Source of the DNA: a virus
Virus record (IMG/VR): IMGVR_UViG_3300033148_004732
Span: 1-25,631 of that record
Length of the DNA stretch: 25,631 bases
Reading direction: 5' to 3' (one strand)
In this document: piece by piece, positions 10,434-24,263 of the stretch
How positions within the stretch are numbered: position 1 is the stretch's first letter
Layout of the letters: each line of letters begins with the position of its first letter
The notes under the pieces: generated by a model
Seen by the model: the letters and a program-made list of their open reading frames with translations, nothing else
Database searches by the model: none
Told to the model about the DNA's origin: nothing
Translations under genes and position numbers: made by a program

Positions 10434-10651
10434 GCGATCTACAGTATCTCTCGGACCACGAAATCAACGCAATGGCCAAATGGGACATCGTTGAGGAGCG
10501 CGAATATGGGCGGCAGAAGGAGGAGCGCCGCAAAACCAGAATGCAGCGGCAGATTGACCGCCTCATGGAGCGCAATGCAGAATTGTGCGTGCGAGTGCAG
10601 CGGCTAGAGGAGCGACTCGCCTGGTACGAGCGCGAGAGGAGCACAACGTGA
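10430..10651 (+). CDS. Small coiled-coil protein
   Basis: 73 residues. ATG 10430 is in ATGA overlap with the previous gene. From residue 20 onward it is a continuous charged helix with heptad leucines (RQIDRLMERNAELCVRVQRL), a clear coiled coil. It lies directly before recT and is coupled to it by GTGA. It could be a partner or regulator of the recombinase, but no family is recognised. Confidence 0.62.
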   Translation: MSDLQYLSDHEINAMAKWDIVEEREYGRQKEERRKTRMQRQIDRLMERNAELCVRVQRLEERLAWYERERSTT

Positions 10652-11688
10652 CGAACCTACCGGTAACGAGAGATGAAGCATTATTGCCCACAACATTCGA
10701 GGGCATGCTGGAACAGGCTGAGGTATTGGTCACATCGGGCCTATTGCCGCGCACGGTGAAAACACCCGCAGCAGCAGTGGCAATCATGCTCACCGGTCGC
10801 GAGCTGGGCATTCCGCCCATGCAGTCATTTCGGTCGATCTACGTGGTTGACGGCAGACCGACGATTAGCACCGAGCTAATGGCGGCGCTTCTGCTACAGG
10901 CGGGCGTGACCTATAATATCGACAAACTCACTGAGGCCGGCTGTCAGGTAACGTTTCAGCGGTCTAATGGGATGCGCTATACCAGCGTATTCACGGCAGA
11001 GGACGCTAAGCGTGCAGGACTCACGGCCAAAGACAATTGGCGGCAATATCCACGCGATATGCTATATAACCGAGCATTTGCGACAGGCGCGCGCAAAATC
11101 GCGCCCGACGTACTAGCCAAGATGTATACGCCAGACGAGGCGGGGGCGGTCGAGGTACTAGATGATAATGGACACCTAGTAACAGTCAAAACAATAGAGG
11201 ATGGTGGACCGTTAGCACCCGCCAATAGCACAGCGCAAGCTTGGGTGCATGAGATCTCCACACCAGAGGTCAAGTCCGAATCGCCGCCCGCCAACGGCAA
11301 ACAGCGATGGACAGAGGCCGACCGGCCATATCCGGCTAACGTCATTGCTAGGGCCCTACGGAAAGCGGCCGACCGCGACACGCGCCCCTCATCCGAAAAA
11401 CAACAGCAGGCGGTTCGCATCGCACTGAACTCGCTGTTCGACGGCGATGACGAAACCACGGCGGACCAGAAGCGGCATAGCCTGACAAAGATGCTATGGG
11501 GCATCGAGAGCAGCAAGGAGCTGACCGCCGGCATGTGCAGCGCATTGCTGGATTGGTCGCGGTTGGCTGAGGACGGGCCCGATGGCCAGCGCTACTATAC
11601 AGTGACGGAACATGCGCCCGCAGAGGCGGCGGCTATCGTGAGCGCCGCGCTAGAGCAGGCGGGGCAGCAGAAACTGGAGGGCGTGTGA
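10648..11688 (+). CDS. recT: RecT-family single-strand annealing recombinase
   Basis: 346 residues from GTG 10648 (GTGA overlap with the gene before). The earlier in-frame start at 10585 lies wholly inside that gene. Residues about 45-165 show the phage RecT/recombinase pattern: LGIPPMQSFRSIYVVDGRPTI, then YTSVFTAEDAKRAGL, DNWRQYPRDML and ARKIAPDVLAKMYTPDE. RecT proteins pair complementary single strands during phage recombination. A C-terminal extension (about 210-346) carries RKAADRDTRPSSEK and LWGIESSKELTAG.CSALLDW, a domain also seen at the end of other phage recombination proteins. No RecE-type exonuclease is in the window. The partner may be the metallophosphoesterase or lie elsewhere. 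Confidence 0.82.
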   Translation: MTNLPVTRDEALLPTTFEGMLEQAEVLVTSGLLPRTVKTPAAAVAIMLTGRELGIPPMQSFRSIYVVDGRPTISTELMAALLLQAGVTYNIDKLTEAGCQVTFQRSNGMRYTSVFTAEDAKRAGLTAKDNWRQYPRDMLYNRAFATGARKIAPDVLAKMYTPDEAGAVEVLDDNGHLVTVKTIEDGGPLAPANSTAQAWVHEISTPEVKSESPPANGKQRWTEADRPYPANVIARALRKAADRDTRPSSEKQQQAVRIALNSLFDGDDETTADQKRHSLTKMLWGIESSKELTAGMCSALLDWSRLAEDGPDGQRYYTVTEHAPAEAAAIVSAALEQAGQQKLEGV

Positions 11689-12600: not shown

Positions 12601-13716
12601 ATGGATGTACGCATAGTACAGTCGATGCTAGCCGACGCGCTGGCCACGGTGCGACCTGCCAGCCGCTGGCACGCAATTATGCCCGCATTGAACAGCGTGC
12701 TGCTATCGGCTACGGATGATCGCCTAACCGTGAGCGCGACGAATCTGGAGGTGTACATTCAGCGCACTTTGCTGATGGCCGACGTGACGCAGCCAGGTGC
12801 TATCAGCGTGCCGCTGCGGCTGCTCGGTGAATTCGTGCGCGGGTTGCCAGATGAGATGGTGCGACTCACCACGAACGAAAACACGATGACATTGCATATC
12901 GAGTGCAGCGCATTCGAGGCGAACATCAAGGGGCTTGCCGCAGAGGAATTCCCGCTCATTCCAGAACCAGCGGGCCTGGACTATATCACACTCGACGCCG
13001 ATACGTTCAGTGCCATGGTAGACAGCGTGGCGCCCGCGGCGGCGCGGGATCAGACGAGGCCGGTGCTCGCGAGTGTCTTAGTGACCATCGGCGAGGACGC
13101 GATACGCATGGACGCCGCCGATGGCTATCGGTTGCATCATCGGGTAGAGCCAAGCCATTCGGATCTGCGTCCTCTGAGTGCCATCATGCCGACCGACGCT
13201 CTCCGCCAGGTTGCCAAGAATGGCAATGAATCTGTGGACTTGACGCTAGACGGCTCGCGATTGTTCGCGCGCACTGACGACACGCGCATCATGGTGCAAT
13301 TGATCGAGGGTGAATATCCCGATATGAGCACGATCATTCCCGCGCAGCAGAACACCAGTGTTATCATAGCGAGGGACGAATTCGCGCAGGCCACACGGAT
13401 GGCGCACGTATTCGCCCGCGATGCAACAGGTGCGATGCGAGTCGGCGTGGTGCCACCAGATGCGGTTATCATCACGGCCCAGAGCGTTGAACATGGCGAT
13501 AACGTGAGCGAGTTGAGCGGCAACGTGGACGGTCCAGCGGTCGAGTTTCGGGCGAACACGGGTTATCTTCTCGACGCATTGAAAGCTATGGATACCGTGA
13601 GTGTGCGGCTCGGCGTGAATGACAGCAGGACGCCTATCACGTTGCGGCCAGAATATGGGCGCGATACCGGCGCGCGCGAGATGGTGACCGTCATAATGCC
13701 GATGTACGAGGGGTGA
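12601..13716 (+). CDS. dnaN: DNA polymerase III beta subunit (sliding clamp), phage-encoded
   Basis: 371 residues, close to the usual 365-375 for bacterial DnaN. GAGGAGG precedes the ATG. Three repeats of the clamp fold can be followed: LLSATDDRLTVSATNLEV (domain 1), RPVLASVLVTI.DAIRMDAADGYRLHHR (domain 2), then IEGEYPDMSTIIP and FRANTGYLLDALKAM (domain 3). The protein ends VTVIMPMYEG, matching the conserved C-terminal MPM strand of clamps. Two copies form a ring on DNA that holds the polymerase. A phage copy upstream of an initiator gene suggests the phage loads its own clamp for host polymerase, or competes with the host clamp. No clamp loader is seen. Confidence 0.95.
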   Translation: MDVRIVQSMLADALATVRPASRWHAIMPALNSVLLSATDDRLTVSATNLEVYIQRTLLMADVTQPGAISVPLRLLGEFVRGLPDEMVRLTTNENTMTLHIECSAFEANIKGLAAEEFPLIPEPAGLDYITLDADTFSAMVDSVAPAAARDQTRPVLASVLVTIGEDAIRMDAADGYRLHHRVEPSHSDLRPLSAIMPTDALRQVAKNGNESVDLTLDGSRLFARTDDTRIMVQLIEGEYPDMSTIIPAQQNTSVIIARDEFAQATRMAHVFARDATGAMRVGVVPPDAVIITAQSVEHGDNVSELSGNVDGPAVEFRANTGYLLDALKAMDTVSVRLGVNDSRTPITLRPEYGRDTGAREMVTVIMPMYEG

Positions 13717-13727
13717 TAGGGGATGCA

Positions 13728-13889
13728 ATGAGCATAGAGCGAGCGCGTCTGCTGCTGGACGGGTTTCGCGCATTAGCGCAACGTCCTGAGGGGCGGCGGA
13801 TCTGGATATCTAGACAGGAACTGCGAGATGTGTTAGAATATATCGAGCAGTTGGAGCGGGGCCAAAAGGAGATGCGACGAGATGATTGA
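13728..13889 (+). CDS. Small helical protein, paralogue of its downstream neighbour
   Basis: 53 residues from ATG 13728, with GGGGATGC upstream; ATG 13723 is out of frame. The pattern LLLDGFRALAQRPEGRRIWIS then ELRDVLEYIEQLE matches the next gene (LRLLVDRPDAGRISMA, WRELLAYIGRLE). Function unknown. Placed between the clamp and the initiator. Confidence 0.6.
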   Translation: MSIERARLLLDGFRALAQRPEGRRIWISRQELRDVLEYIEQLERGQKEMRRDD

Positions 13890-14031: not shown

Positions 14032-14228
14032 TGTGCGGGCATACTGACCCGTATATCTGGTATGACAAGCAGGGTCGGCCGTATTGCGTACTCTGCCATA
14101 ATATGCCTCGCACACATGACGCGAGTATGACGGTGGACGAGCGGCTGCCATTCGACGAGCCGCCAGACGCGGAGGCAGCGGAGGCGCAGATGAGGGAATT
14201 GTATGGAGATGATGATACAAATACGTGA
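14007..14228 (+). CDS. Small zinc-binding protein
   Basis: 73 residues from ATG 14007, preceded by GGAGGAGGAG. ATG 14028 would give an ATGA overlap but has no ribosome site. CGHTDPYIWYDKQGRPYCVLC supplies Cys, His and a CxxC pair for one zinc ion. The C-terminal half is acidic. It overlaps the initiator start by 26 bases. Many small phage proteins of this shape sit next to replication genes; role unknown. Confidence 0.6.
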   Translation: MPKTGLRMMCGHTDPYIWYDKQGRPYCVLCHNMPRTHDASMTVDERLPFDEPPDAEAAEAQMRELYGDDDTNT

Positions 14229-15045
14229 CCTGAGAACAGAGAAGCGATTTTTCGTCGACAACGCGATTATAGCGGACTATGGCGCAGAGCTGAAACCTAT
14301 CGGTATCGCCGTCTATTGCGCGCTATGTCTCCACGCACGCCTAGCAACGCAGCAATGTTACCCCAGCCAGCAGACTCTGGCTGAGGAACTGGGCACCAGC
14401 CTCGCCAGCGTGAAGCGCGGACTTGCCAAGCTGACCGAACTTCAGTTGATCGCCGTCGAGCATCGATACAATGAGAACGGCGGCAAGACATCCAATCTCT
14501 ACACGCTAGTTAATCCGCCGATAGCTCAGACAGAGCTATCCCATAGCTCAGACAGAGCTATACCCATAGCTCACAGAGAGCTATCCCATAGCTCACAGAG
14601 AGCTATAAACAATCCGAAATCTAACAATCCGAATCTTGAACAATCCGAAGAGAACGGACGTGAATCTGGCGGACCAGATTCACAGCGCAAGCGCCGCGTC
14701 TCTCCTGAGCAGCGACAACGGCGTGCTATTCAGACTGCGGCCCGCGAGCATTTTGAGCGCGTTACAGGGATCCGTATCCCCGAGAAGGGTAGGTCTTCCG
14801 CGCTCGGTCGGCTGTGGTGGAATCCGATACGCGAGATATGCGGCCTAGCCGATTACGATATGGAGCAGGTGAACAAACTCATCAGTGAGAGCGTGACGCG
14901 GTTACAGGGGTTGACGGTGAGCGATCCGAACAGCATACTGAAAACCGCGCGCGCTATTGCAGGCGAATGGAAACGAGGTATCTCACGCTCACCACGCGGA
15001 CGTGACGCAATCGCGGCATGGTTAGCACAGACGCAGGAGATCTGA
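14203..15045 (+). CDS. Phage replication initiator, lambda-O-like, winged-helix N-terminus
   Basis: 280 residues from ATG 14203 (GAGGG six bases upstream). Residues about 15-100 form a helix-turn-helix/winged-helix domain: IGIAVYCALCLHA, CYPSQQTLAEELG, SLASVKRGLAKLTELQLI, then a wing with NENGGKTSNLYTLV. This is the pattern of phage replication proteins of the O N-terminal type. Residues about 107-150 are a low-complexity linker encoded by the iteron repeats. Residues about 160-280 form a basic helical C-terminal domain (RRVSPEQRQRR, LGRLWWNPIREICG, SDPNSILKTARAIA) that may bind the helicase loader. The protein should bind the iterons inside its own gene and open the origin. The next gene overlaps by one base and encodes the likely loader. 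Confidence 0.82.
   Translation: MEMMIQIRDLRTEKRFFVDNAIIADYGAELKPIGIAVYCALCLHARLATQQCYPSQQTLAEELGTSLASVKRGLAKLTELQLIAVEHRYNENGGKTSNLYTLVNPPIAQTELSHSSDRAIPIAHRELSHSSQRAINNPKSNNPNLEQSEENGRESGGPDSQRKRRVSPEQRQRRAIQTAAREHFERVTGIRIPEKGRSSALGRLWWNPIREICGLADYDMEQVNKLISESVTRLQGLTVSDPNSILKTARAIAGEWKRGISRSPRGRDAIAAWLAQTQEI
14521..14606 (+). repeat. Origin iterons: four 19-bp palindromic repeats inside the initiator gene
   Basis: Copies at 14521-14539, 14543-14561, 14566-14584 and 14588-14606. Each has arms ATAGCTC and GAGCTAT around a 5-base centre: AGACA in copies 1-2 and ACAGA in copies 3-4. Spacing is 22, 23 and 22 bases, about two helical turns. The unit of two copies is 45 bp and keeps the reading frame, giving the protein repeats IAQTELSHSSDRAIP and IAHRELSHSSQRAIN. 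Lambda ori likewise has four palindromic iterons inside gene O. The role as replication origin is inferred from this match. Confidence 0.85.
14608..14649 (+). repeat. Three direct 11-bp repeats, putative DNA-unwinding element
   Basis: AACAATCCGAA occurs at 14608-14618, 14623-14633 and 14639-14649, spaced 15 and 16 bases, directly after the last iteron. The stretch 14601-14650 has 18 G/C of 50, lower than the flanking genes. In lambda an AT-rich strand-opening region lies in the same place next to the iterons. The role is inferred. Confidence 0.7.
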
Positions 15046-15590
15046 TGGCGAGTGAAGAGACGATCGCGCGGATGTTCGATGGGTTTGTCCAGGTGTGGCC
15101 GCGTGATGGCGATCGCGTATCACCCGAGACGATCCAGATATACCATCGTTGTCTCGCCGACATACCTGACGATCTATTGCAAGCGGCGGTAGTGAAAGTG
15201 GTGAGCGAGGCGACGTTCTGGCCGAAGCCTGCCGAGATACGTGCGGCGGCGCTCGCCCTCGTGGAGCCGGAGGATCTATCGGCCGGCGAGGCCTGGGCGA
15301 TGGTGCAGCGATATATCCGTCATTGTCCACCTGGACGATGGTGGGTGGCGGGTAAATCATATCACGCCAAACCGTTGCCCGAGCGCGTGCAGAAATGCGT
15401 CGACGCAGTCGGCGGCATGGCGTATCTGCGACTGTCCGAGAATACCATGAGCGACAGAGCGCGGTTCGCTACCGCATACGATGCGATAACGCGCCGCGAG
15501 CGAGAGCGAGCTCGAATGCTACCAGAGGTGCGGGCGGTTGTAGAGCGACTGGCAGAGCAGCGCGTGGGGCAATTGGAGACGGGAACATGA
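15045..15590 (+). CDS. Replicative helicase loader, G39P-like
   Basis: 181 residues from ATG 15045, overlapping the initiator stop by one base (TGATG). Residues about 5-70 match the pattern of SPP1 G39P-type loaders: a segment FVQVWP, then IYHRCLADIPDDLLQAAVVKVV and FWPKPAEIRAAAL. G39P binds the replicative helicase and brings it to the initiator-origin complex. Residues 75-181 are a longer C-terminal part than in G39P, rich in Arg and Glu helices. Position straight after the initiator is the lambda O/P and SPP1 38/39 order. With no phage helicase in view, host DnaB is the probable cargo. The family match is by pattern and should be confirmed with a profile. Confidence 0.68.
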   Translation: MASEETIARMFDGFVQVWPRDGDRVSPETIQIYHRCLADIPDDLLQAAVVKVVSEATFWPKPAEIRAAALALVEPEDLSAGEAWAMVQRYIRHCPPGRWWVAGKSYHAKPLPERVQKCVDAVGGMAYLRLSENTMSDRARFATAYDAITRRERERARMLPEVRAVVERLAEQRVGQLETGT

Positions 15591-16123: not shown

Positions 16124-16279
16124 ATGATACTAGGCGGATATGTTCTGCACGCGCCGACTGGCCGTTGGTTTCGCGTCACGGGCTGGCTCACACAGGATGG
16201 CGCACCGTACATATGCGGTGTGACAGACGATGGTATGTGGGCGCGGTGGCCAGCGGAGGAATGCGCGGGGGTGGCATGA
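16124..16279 (+). CDS. Small hypothetical protein
   Basis: 51 residues, with GAGGAGGGTGAG before ATG 16124. Beta-rich with many Trp (RWFRVTGWLT, GMWARWPAEE). No family recognised. Stop overlaps the next start (ATGA), so it is expressed with the PAPS-reductase-like gene. Confidence 0.58.
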   Translation: MILGGYVLHAPTGRWFRVTGWLTQDGAPYICGVTDDGMWARWPAEECAGVA

Positions 16280-16998
16280 GCGACTGCATCAGTTTTGGTG
16301 GTGGGGTGAACAGCGTAGCGATGACCGTGCTCATGGTCAATGAGGGATGGCGCGGGCCTGTCGTTTTCGCGGAGACCGGGTCCGAGTGGCCTGAAACGGA
16401 CGCATACGTCGCAGCGTTTGACCGCGATTGGCTGCAACCGCGCGGGCTGCGAATTGAACATGTGGGGGCGGAGTGGCGGGCGAACTCGCTGCGCGATACG
16501 TTGGATGTTTACTGCGAGACGCATAGGGTCATACCAGGGTCATTCAAACGTTGGTGTACGTCTGAGTACAAATGGCGCCCCATCCACAAATGGGCTGATG
16601 CGCACAACATCACAGTCCAGCATCTCGGTATCGCCGCTGACGAATCGCACCGCAAACCCGATGCCAGTCGTCCACTCTGCGAACGGGGCATCACGCGGGC
16701 AGGCTGCATCGACATCATTCGCGCAGAGAGGCTGCCCGTGCCGCGCAAAAGTGGCTGTTGGCTGTGCCCATTTCAGCGACGGGCGCAGTGGCGTGAATTG
16801 TGGGAGCGTCACCCAGATCTATATGAGCGAGCCGCCGCATTAGAGGATGCGGCAACAGAACGGCGCGGAGTGTACACGACGCTGGACCCGTCGGGACGAT
16901 ACACGCTGCGTGACCTGGCAGCAGAATTCGAGCGACAGCCGCGCCTAATGGGCGAGCAGGTTTGGTGTGCGGCGAATGTGACGGGGGTGAGATGTTAA
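16276..16998 (+). CDS. Phage PAPS reductase-like / ATP-pyrophosphatase protein
   Basis: 240 residues from ATG 16276 (ATGA overlap); the GTG start at 16165 runs inside the preceding gene. The N-terminus CISFGGGVNSVAM is the PP-loop of the adenine nucleotide alpha-hydrolase fold. PVVFAETGSEWPET is the next conserved strand-loop. Cys residues in FKRWCTSEYKW and SGCWLCPFQ may bind a metal or Fe-S cluster, as in DndC/IbrA-type relatives. The family activates a substrate with ATP and often acts in sulfur transfer or nucleic-acid modification. In a phage, DNA or tRNA modification is more likely than sulfate assimilation. The substrate cannot be read from the sequence. Confidence 0.85.
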   Translation: MSDCISFGGGVNSVAMTVLMVNEGWRGPVVFAETGSEWPETDAYVAAFDRDWLQPRGLRIEHVGAEWRANSLRDTLDVYCETHRVIPGSFKRWCTSEYKWRPIHKWADAHNITVQHLGIAADESHRKPDASRPLCERGITRAGCIDIIRAERLPVPRKSGCWLCPFQRRAQWRELWERHPDLYERAAALEDAATERRGVYTTLDPSGRYTLRDLAAEFERQPRLMGEQVWCAANVTGVRC

Positions 16999-17101: not shown

Positions 17102-17621
17102 ATGGATGAAACGACTAGAGATATACAGAGACTGCTCGCGCTCCGTCATCTGTTCGCGCTAGAGGTACCGACGACGACAGGGTTCGCGACGCGAGCGCGA
17201 ACGTCGGCCATTGATCCGATTCGGAGTCTGCGTCGCATTGATGCATTTGCCATGAATATGTATCCGTCCAGAGGATTCAAGCGGATTGCATATGAGATAA
17301 AGACCTGTCGCAGTGACTGGCTCTCTGAGTGCGCGAATTGGGCGAAAATGACGCAGGCGCGCGAATTGGGCGAAAATGACGCAGGCGCGATTCCTGGCAG
17401 ACGAGATGTGGGTGGTTACGCCAGAGGGCGTCGCCGTTCGAGATGACTGGCGGCAACATGAGCATCTGAGGCCAATAGGGCATCTGGTCCTGAAGAGTGG
17501 CCACCTTGTCAAACGGACTGGCGCAATGTCGTGCGACGCGTGGCCTATGCCAGAAGGGTTTATCGCAGGATTTTTACGCGCCGCTATTGCCACGGCACGC
17601 ATGTTCGAGGCTGATGCATGA
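17102..17621 (+). pseudogene. PD-(D/E)xK-type nuclease (MmcB-like), frameshifted by a 28-bp tandem duplication
   Basis: Frame one runs from ATG 17102 to a TGA at 17444-17446. It contains RRIDAFAMNMYPSRGF and IAYEIKTCRSDWL, the D and ExK catalytic signature of a restriction-fold nuclease of the MmcB-like kind. The rest of the protein, FLADEMWVVTPEGV to the C-terminus, continues in a different frame up to TGA 17619-17621. Taking out one copy of the 28-bp repeat at 17331-17386 joins both parts into one 163-residue protein with a natural WAKMTQARFLADEM junction. As written, the gene would make a 114-residue chimeric-ended product. It may be a recent mutation, an on/off switch by repeat slippage, or an assembly error. 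Confidence 0.8.
17331..17386 (+). repeat. Perfect 28-bp tandem duplication
   Basis: Two identical copies at 17331-17358 and 17359-17386, starting GCGCGAATTGGGCG and ending GACGCAGGC. Because 28 is not a multiple of three, the repeat shifts the frame of the nuclease gene. Identity runs on for three bases past copy two, as expected from slippage. Confidence 0.95.
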
Positions 17622-22704: not shown

Positions 22705-23122
22705 CAGGGCGAGTCAACAGATCCTGCGGGGGCGCGCGCGCGAAGCCGCATGTCTCGAATTGCGCAAAGCGGGACTGACGTACGCTGCCATTGGCGAGCG
22801 GCTGGGCATGAGCGAGTCGGGTGCATGGCGAGCCGTGATGCGCGCATTGAAGCGGCTCATGGAGAGGATCAACGAGCAGGCTGAGGATGTGCGCACGCTA
22901 GAGGTGCAACGGCTCGATGACTTGTTGGAGACGCTATGGCCATATCGGCACAAACCAGCGTATGTGGACCGCATTCTGCGCGTGATGGAGCGACGCGCGC
23001 GATTGCTGGGACTCGATGCGCCCGAGAGACGCGAGATAAGTGGCGGCATGGAGATAGAGATTGGCTGGGGTGATGAAGCTACGCCTGCCAGGCCTACACG
23101 CAGCACAGGCGGAGATACGTGA
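22694..23122 (+). CDS. terS: Terminase small subunit
   Basis: 142 residues from ATG 22694; the earlier start at 22664 lies in the gene before. Residues about 10-55 hold a helix-turn-helix (LELRKAGLTYAAIGERLGMSESGAWRAVMRAL), the DNA-binding part that finds the packaging site. The middle is a coiled coil (LMERINEQAEDVRTLEV.RLDDLLETLW), which drives ring assembly. VDRILRVMERRARLLGLDAP is a typical closing segment of this family. It overlaps the large subunit by 50 bases, so the two are made together. Confidence 0.85.
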   Translation: MADSRASQQILRGRAREAACLELRKAGLTYAAIGERLGMSESGAWRAVMRALKRLMERINEQAEDVRTLEVQRLDDLLETLWPYRHKPAYVDRILRVMERRARLLGLDAPERREISGGMEIEIGWGDEATPARPTRSTGGDT

Positions 23123-24263
23123 TAGCGAGGCGCGGTTTCGTGTCGTGGCGGCAGGAAGACGGTTCGGGAAGACATTGCTCGGTTCCGCGCTCTGTATCGC
23201 CGTGGCTGCGCGGGGTGGCCGCGCTTGGTGGACAGCTCCGTCCTACAAAATGGCGGCGGTGGGCTGGCGAGGGATCCGGCAATTGGCCGCGCAAATACCG
23301 CTCACGCAGGTGCATAAGGTTCGAATGTTGGTGACTCTTCCCAGCGGCGGCACAGTTCAGGTTCGCAGTGCAGATGATCCGCAGAGTCTGCGCGGCGAGG
23401 GACTCGATTTCTGCGTCCTCGACGAATGTGCGTTCATGCGCGAAGAGGCGTGGGCTGAGGCATTGCGACCGGCGCTGAGCGATCGGCAGGGTGGCGCAAT
23501 GTTCATCAGCACGCCGAAAGGTCGCAATTGGTTCTGGCGTTTGTGGCAACGAGGGCAGGACGAACACGAGCCGGACTGGGCCTCATGGCAGAGGCCGACA
23601 GCCGAGAATCCGTACATTGCCGCGAGTGAGATTGCCGATGCCAAACATGACCTGCCTGAACGCATATTCGCGCAGGAATACGAGGCGCAATTTCTGGACG
23701 ATGCAGGCGGAGTATTCCGGCATGTGATGGCAGCAGCGACGGCACAGGAGAGCGATGCAGAGAATGACCACAGCTACATCATGGGCGTCGACTGGGGCAA
23801 ACATAAGGATTTCACCGTATTATCCGTATTCGATGCCGACGAGCGGCGAATGGTATCCATTGATAGATTCAACCAGATTGACTATCGTATCCAGCGGCAA
23901 CGACTCGGCGCCCTCGCAGAACAATATCACGTCAGCGCAATCATCGCCGAGACTAATGCAATGGGCGAGCCAATCATCGAGCAATTGCAACGAGACGGCC
24001 TGCCAGTGCGTGGGTTCACGACGACGCAGGCGACAAAGGCAGAGGCAATTGAGGCGCTGGCGCTGGCATTCGAGCGGGGGGACATCACGATATTGAACGA
24101 TCCGACGCTGGTGGGTGAATTGCAGGCGTACGAGATGGAGCGACTGCCATCGGGTCGTGTGCGATATAACGCGCCTCAAGGAATGCACGACGATTGTGTG
24201 ATGTCGCTCGCGCTTGCATGGCAGGCGATTGGCGATAGCGGGCCACTGTTATTGTGGGGATAG
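23073..24263 (+). CDS. terL: Terminase large subunit
   Basis: 396 residues from ATG 23073; TTG 23061 would add four. The ATPase part carries Walker A AAGRRFGKT (residues 26-34) and Walker B FCVLDE (about 113-118), with a coupling motif STPKGRNWFW near 150. The nuclease part carries GVDWG (Asp about 240), IIAETN (Glu about 293) and HDDCVMSLA (Asp about 373), the three acidic residues of the RNase-H-like headful or cos nuclease. The enzyme cuts concatemers and pumps DNA into the head. Length is a little short for the family (400-500), though all motifs are present. Confidence 0.95.
   Translation: MKLRLPGLHAAQAEIRDSEARFRVVAAGRRFGKTLLGSALCIAVAARGGRAWWTAPSYKMAAVGWRGIRQLAAQIPLTQVHKVRMLVTLPSGGTVQVRSADDPQSLRGEGLDFCVLDECAFMREEAWAEALRPALSDRQGGAMFISTPKGRNWFWRLWQRGQDEHEPDWASWQRPTAENPYIAASEIADAKHDLPERIFAQEYEAQFLDDAGGVFRHVMAAATAQESDAENDHSYIMGVDWGKHKDFTVLSVFDADERRMVSIDRFNQIDYRIQRQRLGALAEQYHVSAIIAETNAMGEPIIEQLQRDGLPVRGFTTTQATKAEAIEALALAFERGDITILNDPTLVGELQAYEMERLPSGRVRYNAPQGMHDDCVMSLALAWQAIGDSGPLLLWG

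Follow-up and report, generated by a model that had tools for sequence, protein, structure and literature searches.

The origin of bacteriophage lambda, situated in gene O, and those of phi80 (gene 15) and P22 (gene 18) comprise four iterons, each a palindrome of about 19 bp, which lie in the central part of the initiator gene, spaced by 20-24 bp and adjoined by an A-rich repeat region, with the gene for a helicase loader or a helicase coming next. Iteron 1 of lambda is built of 4-5-4 half-sites with CTC-N5-GAG, and a hairpin, GTCAGAGAATTC-tggc-GAATCCTCTGAC (p=0.003), is found downstream. Repeated motifs had already been noted in the AT-rich part of lambda ori (PMC4081077), and the in-frame 12- and 15-bp deletions, which are origin mutants in that region, leave an O protein that still complements in trans (PMC6022878). 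The oriL of bacteriophage SPP1 is situated in the initiator gene 38, where initiator-binding direct repeats are accompanied by an AT-rich unwinding element, and the SPP1 system (G38P/G39P/G40P) includes a small loader gene, gp39 (PMC6316719). Outside the phages, the 13-mers of RK2 are bound as single strands by the initiator (PMC4081077).

The window (the whole stretch of viral DNA that was analysed, 25,631 bases) contains an initiator gene that resembles those of lambda, phi80 and P22 in several respects: four palindromic iterons of about the same length in the middle of the gene, an adjoining A-rich repeat region, and a downstream hairpin (Table 1). The slot of a loader or helicase is occupied by a gene of a family without assigned function. 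The predicted protein consists of an N-terminal winged helix, a disordered linker whose coding sequence bears the putative origin, and a C-terminal helical domain. The Pfam search assigned residues 29-83 to HTH_36 (PF13730; E-value 8e-12), the only family above the cut-off, while PHROG profiles of replication initiation proteins were matched with E-values of 1e-13 (phrog_270), 9e-13 (phrog_428) and 7e-10 (the O-like phrog_678). No match was found to Phage_rep_O (PF04492), the Pfam family matched by lambda O and P22 gp18. The single-sequence structure model was poor (mean pLDDT 48; linker below 40), with a helical C-terminal part at 60-77. No close relative of the initiator was found in the viral contigs or the genome contigs, nor was a DNA match in phages; this phage is without a close sequenced relative. 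The closest protein match is the initiator of Parageobacillus phage JGon-2020a (locus L070), 41% identical over the winged helix, where four GNTC-N5-GANC iterons spaced by 21/22/22 are followed at once by 14-nt AACTATACTCATTT repeats, an arrangement comparable to that of the window in a record that carries no annotation and in which the origin is unmarked. JGon-2020a and the HTH_36/DnaD-type initiators of Bacillales phages differ from the window in having a C-terminal DnaD/DnaB_2 domain and an overlapping gene for a DnaC-like ATPase, neither of which was seen in the window.

Table 1. Features of the putative origin region, numbered by position in the window
Feature	Coordinates	Strand	Description and basis
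Promoter-like site	13811..13839	+	10/12 consensus matches plus TG; weak candidate for driving transcription across the putative origin
Initiator gene (280 aa)	14203..15045	+	HTH_36 and PHROG replication-initiation matches
Predicted recognition-helix segment SLASVKRGL (residues 66-74)	14398..14424	+	Alignment of initiators
Iteron 1	14521..14539	.	ATAGCTC-AGACA-GAGCTAT; palindrome search, recoding test
Iteron 2	14543..14561	.	19-mer identical to iteron 1, different frame; palindrome search, codon phase
Iteron 3	14566..14584	.	ATAGCTC-ACAGA-GAGCTAT; palindrome search, recoding test
Iteron 4	14588..14606	.	19-mer identical to iteron 3, different frame; palindrome search, codon phase
Second array	14608..14649	+	Exact 11-mer AACAATCCGAA, three copies, at 14608, 14623 and 14639
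Hairpin, 3' of second array	14660..14683	+	Perfect 10-bp stem, GTGAATCTGG-CGGA-CCAGATTCAC
Next gene (190 aa)	15018..15590	+	28-nt overlap with the initiator gene; helicase/helicase-loader slot

The iterons are four hyphenated palindromes of 19 bp each (14521-14606), the starts of which are spaced by 22/23/22 nt. Their arms (ATAGCTC/GAGCTAT) are perfect in all four copies, 16 of the 19 positions are self-complementary, and the 5-nt centre changes from AGACA in the first two copies to ACAGA in the last two. A first-pass annotation had described these palindromes, with their arms and spacing, as lying within a winged-helix initiator gene, in its linker, and all its coordinates were reproduced exactly to the base; its comparison with lambda ori is also borne out, as the position, number, spacing and palindromy of the iterons agree (gene nt 319-404 of 843 in the window, 349-433 of 900 in lambda O) and unstable, repeat-bearing DNA adjoins them. 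No further site of this form was found in the rest of the 25,631-base record. Inverted repeats with 7-nt arms and a 5-nt gap, of which the gene contains 4, reached a mean of 0.12 and a maximum of 2 in 2,000 synonymous recodings drawn with the codon usage of the window. The codon phase alternates along the array, with phase 0 for iterons 1 and 3 and phase 1 for iterons 2 and 4, and the iteron DNA is consequently translated in two ways, as IAQTEL and as HSSDRAI. Since identical iteron DNA is read in two frames, the selection would be on the DNA and not on a repeated peptide, and the sequence thus points to selection at the DNA level.

Directly 3' of iteron 4 we found a second repeat array, followed by a hairpin, both absent from the first-pass annotation. 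The copies of the 11-mer follow each other at steps of 15 and 16 nt, the third one is read in a different frame, and no copy occurs elsewhere in the record. When the 60-nt stretch holding the array was subjected to dinucleotide shuffling, any 8-mer present three times was obtained in 95 of 20,000 shuffles. The ungapped test, which cannot join 15- and 16-nt steps, for this reason returned p=0.043 when anchored and p=0.19 when unanchored, with the whole linker scanned. According to the nearest-neighbour profile, 14604..14643 is the least stable 40-bp segment of the gene and belongs to the least stable stretches of the record, with an AT content of the second-array region of 59%, compared with 71% in lambda. 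The hairpin is significant against shuffles (p=0.007; single-strand DNA fold z -2.6). We propose that the second array represents putative unwinding or single-strand capture repeats. That such repeats act as DNA is supported by the lambda deletion mutants (PMC6022878), one deletion size of which, 15 bp, is also the repeat offset that came out best in lambda, and by the binding of the RK2 13-mers (PMC4081077). In oriC and RK2, direct repeats of similar length likewise lie in the opened region beside the initiator sites; however, the initiators there are unrelated, and the repeats of the window are coding, with 11 exact bases and steps of 15/16 nt.

The segment from 14521 to about 14683 is very probably the replication origin of this phage, of the lambda type and placed inside the initiator gene linker. 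The features on which this prediction is based can all be read from the sequence (palindromes, second array, hairpin, low stability, DNA-level selection, assignment to a gene family, and a layout that recurs in many phages), and from them we infer how it may work. In the light of published work (PMC7466680), it is probable that the initiator binds to the four palindromes, melts the DNA at the repeats of 14608-14649 and recruits a helicase. Initiator dimers would bind the four iterons via the winged helix, with the SLASVKRGL helix reading each GCTC half-site, and, with sites about two helical turns apart, they would form a wrapped complex. This complex would strain the adjoining A-rich repeats, where the DNA would open; the initiator would hold one strand via the repeated AACAATCCGAA, and the replicative helicase of the host would be recruited by the C-terminal domain of the initiator, acting with the protein that the next gene encodes.

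The next gene is a member of phrog_9804 (unknown function; E-value 4e-21), and its product shares 36% identity with a phage protein that carries the annotation "replisome organizer". Pfam and PDB searches reported no matches, the structure model was weak, and no close relatives were found in the viral contigs. Its slot corresponds to that of lambda P, of P22 gene 12 (a helicase) and of the DnaC-like loaders of other phages, and from this position we regard its product as a candidate helicase loader. In contrast to lambda, it is not recognisably P, and no sequence relationship to SPP1 G39P was found; kinship to G39P/lambda P had been suspected from a FWPKPAEIR motif, and sequence searches gave no confirmation.

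To the first-pass annotation the locus looked like an independent version of the lambda design, with an iteron sequence apparently unrelated to that of lambda; neither view is supported. The winged-helix domain aligns with the DNA-binding domain of lambda O/phi80/P22 (hhalign E-value 1.7e-5, 79%), and the PHROG O-like families 678, 345 and 391 are matched by the window initiator as well as by lambda O, although the stretches of the phrog_391 profile that they match are not the same. The iteron cores, GCTC-N5-GAGC in the window and CCTC-N5-GAGG in lambda iteron 1, have in common the 4-5-4 half-site geometry and CTC-N5-GAG. It is simpler to assume that the two initiators diverged from a common ancestor. 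An origin type reached by convergence, with no link of descent to lambda O, would be compatible with the proposed function, and it would account for the assignment to HTH_36 instead of Phage_rep_O and for the differing outer iteron bases, which leave the iteron overall unlike that of lambda. Nonetheless, we consider it unlikely in view of the profile alignment of the two winged-helix groups, the O-like matches common to both proteins, and a half-site geometry, core and gene position that are all as in lambda.

The window initiator was compared with initiators collected by protein similarity, together with those of lambda, phi80, P22 and TP901-1, whose linker regions were read, and with held-out initiators picked by homology ahead of reading the linkers. 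Lambda O as a query retrieved near-identical copies only, and a consensus HTH_36 query retrieved one locus. Iteron-like periodicity of 19-25 nt was significant in 11/15 initiators of the first set and 8/10 of the held-out set (3.6% of 56 control ORFs), and short-repeat periodicity of 11-17 nt in 6/15 and 9/10, respectively (1.8% of control ORFs). The anchored test of the region directly 3' of the last iteron gave p<0.05 in 8/14 cases, versus 2.9% of 140 shifted windows. The short repeats following the iterons include AACTATACTCATTT in JGon-2020a and ACAAAAGACAATA in P22 (two copies each), GAACCGTCC in Abidatro and RedFox (three copies plus a fourth, with one base changed in Abidatro), a AAACCAGTAA-type repeat in Pavtok (three copies) and GAACCAGTCA in mEp460 (three copies plus a fourth, partial one). 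For TP901-1, Abidatro and MPV1 the automatic search set its iteron window at another place, so that this window and the short-repeat window do not follow each other as expected. The layout of palindromic iterons at about 22 bp, then direct repeats of 11-16 nt, is found also in lambda, P22 and many unrelated phages; the annotated origin sites of lambda, phi80 and P22 are at the same gene position as the iterons of the window, and the linker peptides are wholly different between phages with this common DNA layout.

A hairpin after the second array was present in 11/22 cases of the first comparison and in 2/30 of the blind set described below. It is significant, 20-80 nt past the iterons, in phi80, P22, Gingerbug, PaD14B, JNU_P1, TMW 1.706 P2 and 80alpha (hairpin-bearing phage loci L077, L079, L088, L177, L179, L181, L184), as it is in the window and lambda. 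We do not regard the hairpin as a general origin element; it is either specific to a subgroup or unrelated to the origin.

Variations of the arrangement were observed in a few phages. In three loci from Bacillus and Sporosarcina phages (L071:2468-3040, L072:2483-3110, L087:1459-2020) the winged helix forms a separate small ORF of 109-125 aa, and AACTAAACTCATTT-like repeats are found 3' of the stop codon, with the origin apparently beside and not inside the gene. In the initiator of Marinitoga phage MPV1 (L182:748-1515), 11-nt repeats of the GCAACAGCAAC type (d=11, 21 of 22) form an array where obvious palindromic iterons would be.

When iterons were aligned by their centres, GCTC-N5-GAGC of the window was found to correspond to GTTC-N5-GA[AG]C in JGon-2020a, Pavtok and LASTA (with GGTC or GACC variants) and to GGTC-N5-GACC in Gingerbug and MT835840. 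A GNTC-N5-GANC site is present in the linker of 9/9 initiators with a [ST][VL][KR]R recognition segment versus 1/22 others (Fisher 5e-7; 5e-5 counting lineages), and non-KR helices (HF5, PaD14B, Morganella, mEp460) go with TGCA-N5-TGCA iterons. This correspondence of helix and iteron suggests that the window initiator binds the iterons. The rule was stated from the same homologues in which it was first seen, and a blind scan served as the independent test.

The scan covered 2.9 million viral contigs and looked, at the DNA level alone, for three GNTC-N5-GANC sites spaced by 22 bp. Among the 56 loci obtained, a winged-helix profile derived from known initiators was matched by an ORF in 32 (E-value <1e-4), and in 31 of these the array lies within that ORF. 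The same ORF search at 65 random control loci, single and apparently chance matches from a single-site iteron search of the viral contigs, gave 1 match (6e-13). Inspection of the remaining loci added 12 winged-helix proteins, which brings the number of arrays in or beside a winged-helix gene to 44/56 and leaves 12/56 not so placed; two further arrays, at contig edges, are in an apparent initiator linker. The aligned helix position is occupied by [KR]R in 38/44 loci, a count that was read in part by eye and includes several related loci. Within the 60 nt after the last site, 20/30 non-redundant loci contain an 11-17-nt repeat with p<0.05, versus 3.3% of control windows (Fisher 4e-23), and the coding strand has 39% A against 20% T. 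In four loci from the scan (L185, L213, L220, L232), GGTCACTGTGAGC/GTTCACAGTGACC arrays with CTAGGGGGTAG or CTACCCCCTAG as the separating sequence are crossed by no ORF of at least 70 aa; these may be origins of other elements.

Transcription regulators, too, have dimeric palindromic sites and HTH_36 domains, and Crp-, GntR- and MarR-type models match the initiator weakly, as would be expected if the palindromes were operators of an autoregulatory repressor or a partition factor and replication started elsewhere. However, the sites are within the gene and not at a promoter, and the record holds no other such cluster; no terminator-like site was found, and the promoter-like sites of the region (5 found versus 1.5 expected) are clear of the iteron array. 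A second array and unstable DNA directly 3' of the iterons, and similar arrays in the initiators of many phages, three of them with annotated origin sites, also argue against operators, and we have rejected this interpretation as highly improbable. Still less credible is that the repeats represent a 15-residue linker motif at the protein level, with the palindromes as its by-product. The first-pass annotation had described the 45-bp double unit as translated into a 15-residue repeat, and the part of this claim that stands is that the unit is in frame and yields a 15-residue near-repeat; neighbouring identical iterons nevertheless give different peptides. Together with the change of frame in the third copy of AACAATCCGAA, the loss of the palindromes on synonymous recoding and linker peptides that are entirely unlike between phages with the same DNA layout, this led us to dismiss the protein-repeat explanation and to retain that of a replication origin.

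The window alone would be one more lambda-type origin, and the wider comparison matters more. It is conceivable, although we would stop somewhat short of calling it likely, that these loci represent a very widespread, undescribed class of in-gene origins, in which a [ST][VLI][KR]R recognition helix is matched to GNTC-N5-GANC iterons spaced by about 22 bp, and in which the abutting 11-16-nt repeats are a sequence-specific opening or strand-capture element. The AT-rich repeats of lambda themselves are already known; what appears to be new is the generality of the second array and the rule from helix to iteron. No description of that generality, or of how the second array is tied to the iterons throughout the HTH_36 initiators, was found in the literature searched, a body that lies apart from the review of Weigel and Seitz (2006). 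With a signature defined at the DNA level, a blind search brought out dozens of in-gene origins; a candidate rule ties the recognition helix of the initiator to the iteron half-site; and there is evidence that the "AT-rich region" beside the iterons usually has its own array of short direct repeats, across phages of unrelated hosts. If the proposal is true, phage origins and incompatibility groups would be predictable from sequence alone. How initiators of the lambda type open the DNA is an old question, and it can now be addressed by mutagenesis of named bases and residues.

Analysis of the rest of the record revealed a tail gene (Dit-like, 823-1641) near its start and a large terminase gene (23061-24263) near its end, the latter nearest to proteins of the Thermus phage P23-45 type and of a Tunturiibacter phage (about 33%). 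As these two genes are at the ends and no capsid or portal gene was recognised among the ORFs tested, the record is probably a fragment, i.e., an incomplete virus contig, and an additional origin could therefore lie elsewhere. In SPP1, a point of difference from the window, a further origin (oriR) is present at a distance of about 13 kb. Just upstream of the initiator gene, 12601-13716 encodes a complete phage DNA polymerase sliding clamp (beta-clamp) with three Pfam domains, which together with a gene for a RecT-like annealing protein (10585-11688) and the putative origin makes up a compact replication/recombination block. A phosphoadenosine phosphosulfate reductase-like gene (16165-16998) is found near the origin region, and 17331-17389 consists of 2.1 tandem copies of the 28-nt unit GCGCGAATTGGGCGAAAATGACGCAGGC, which are 100% identical.
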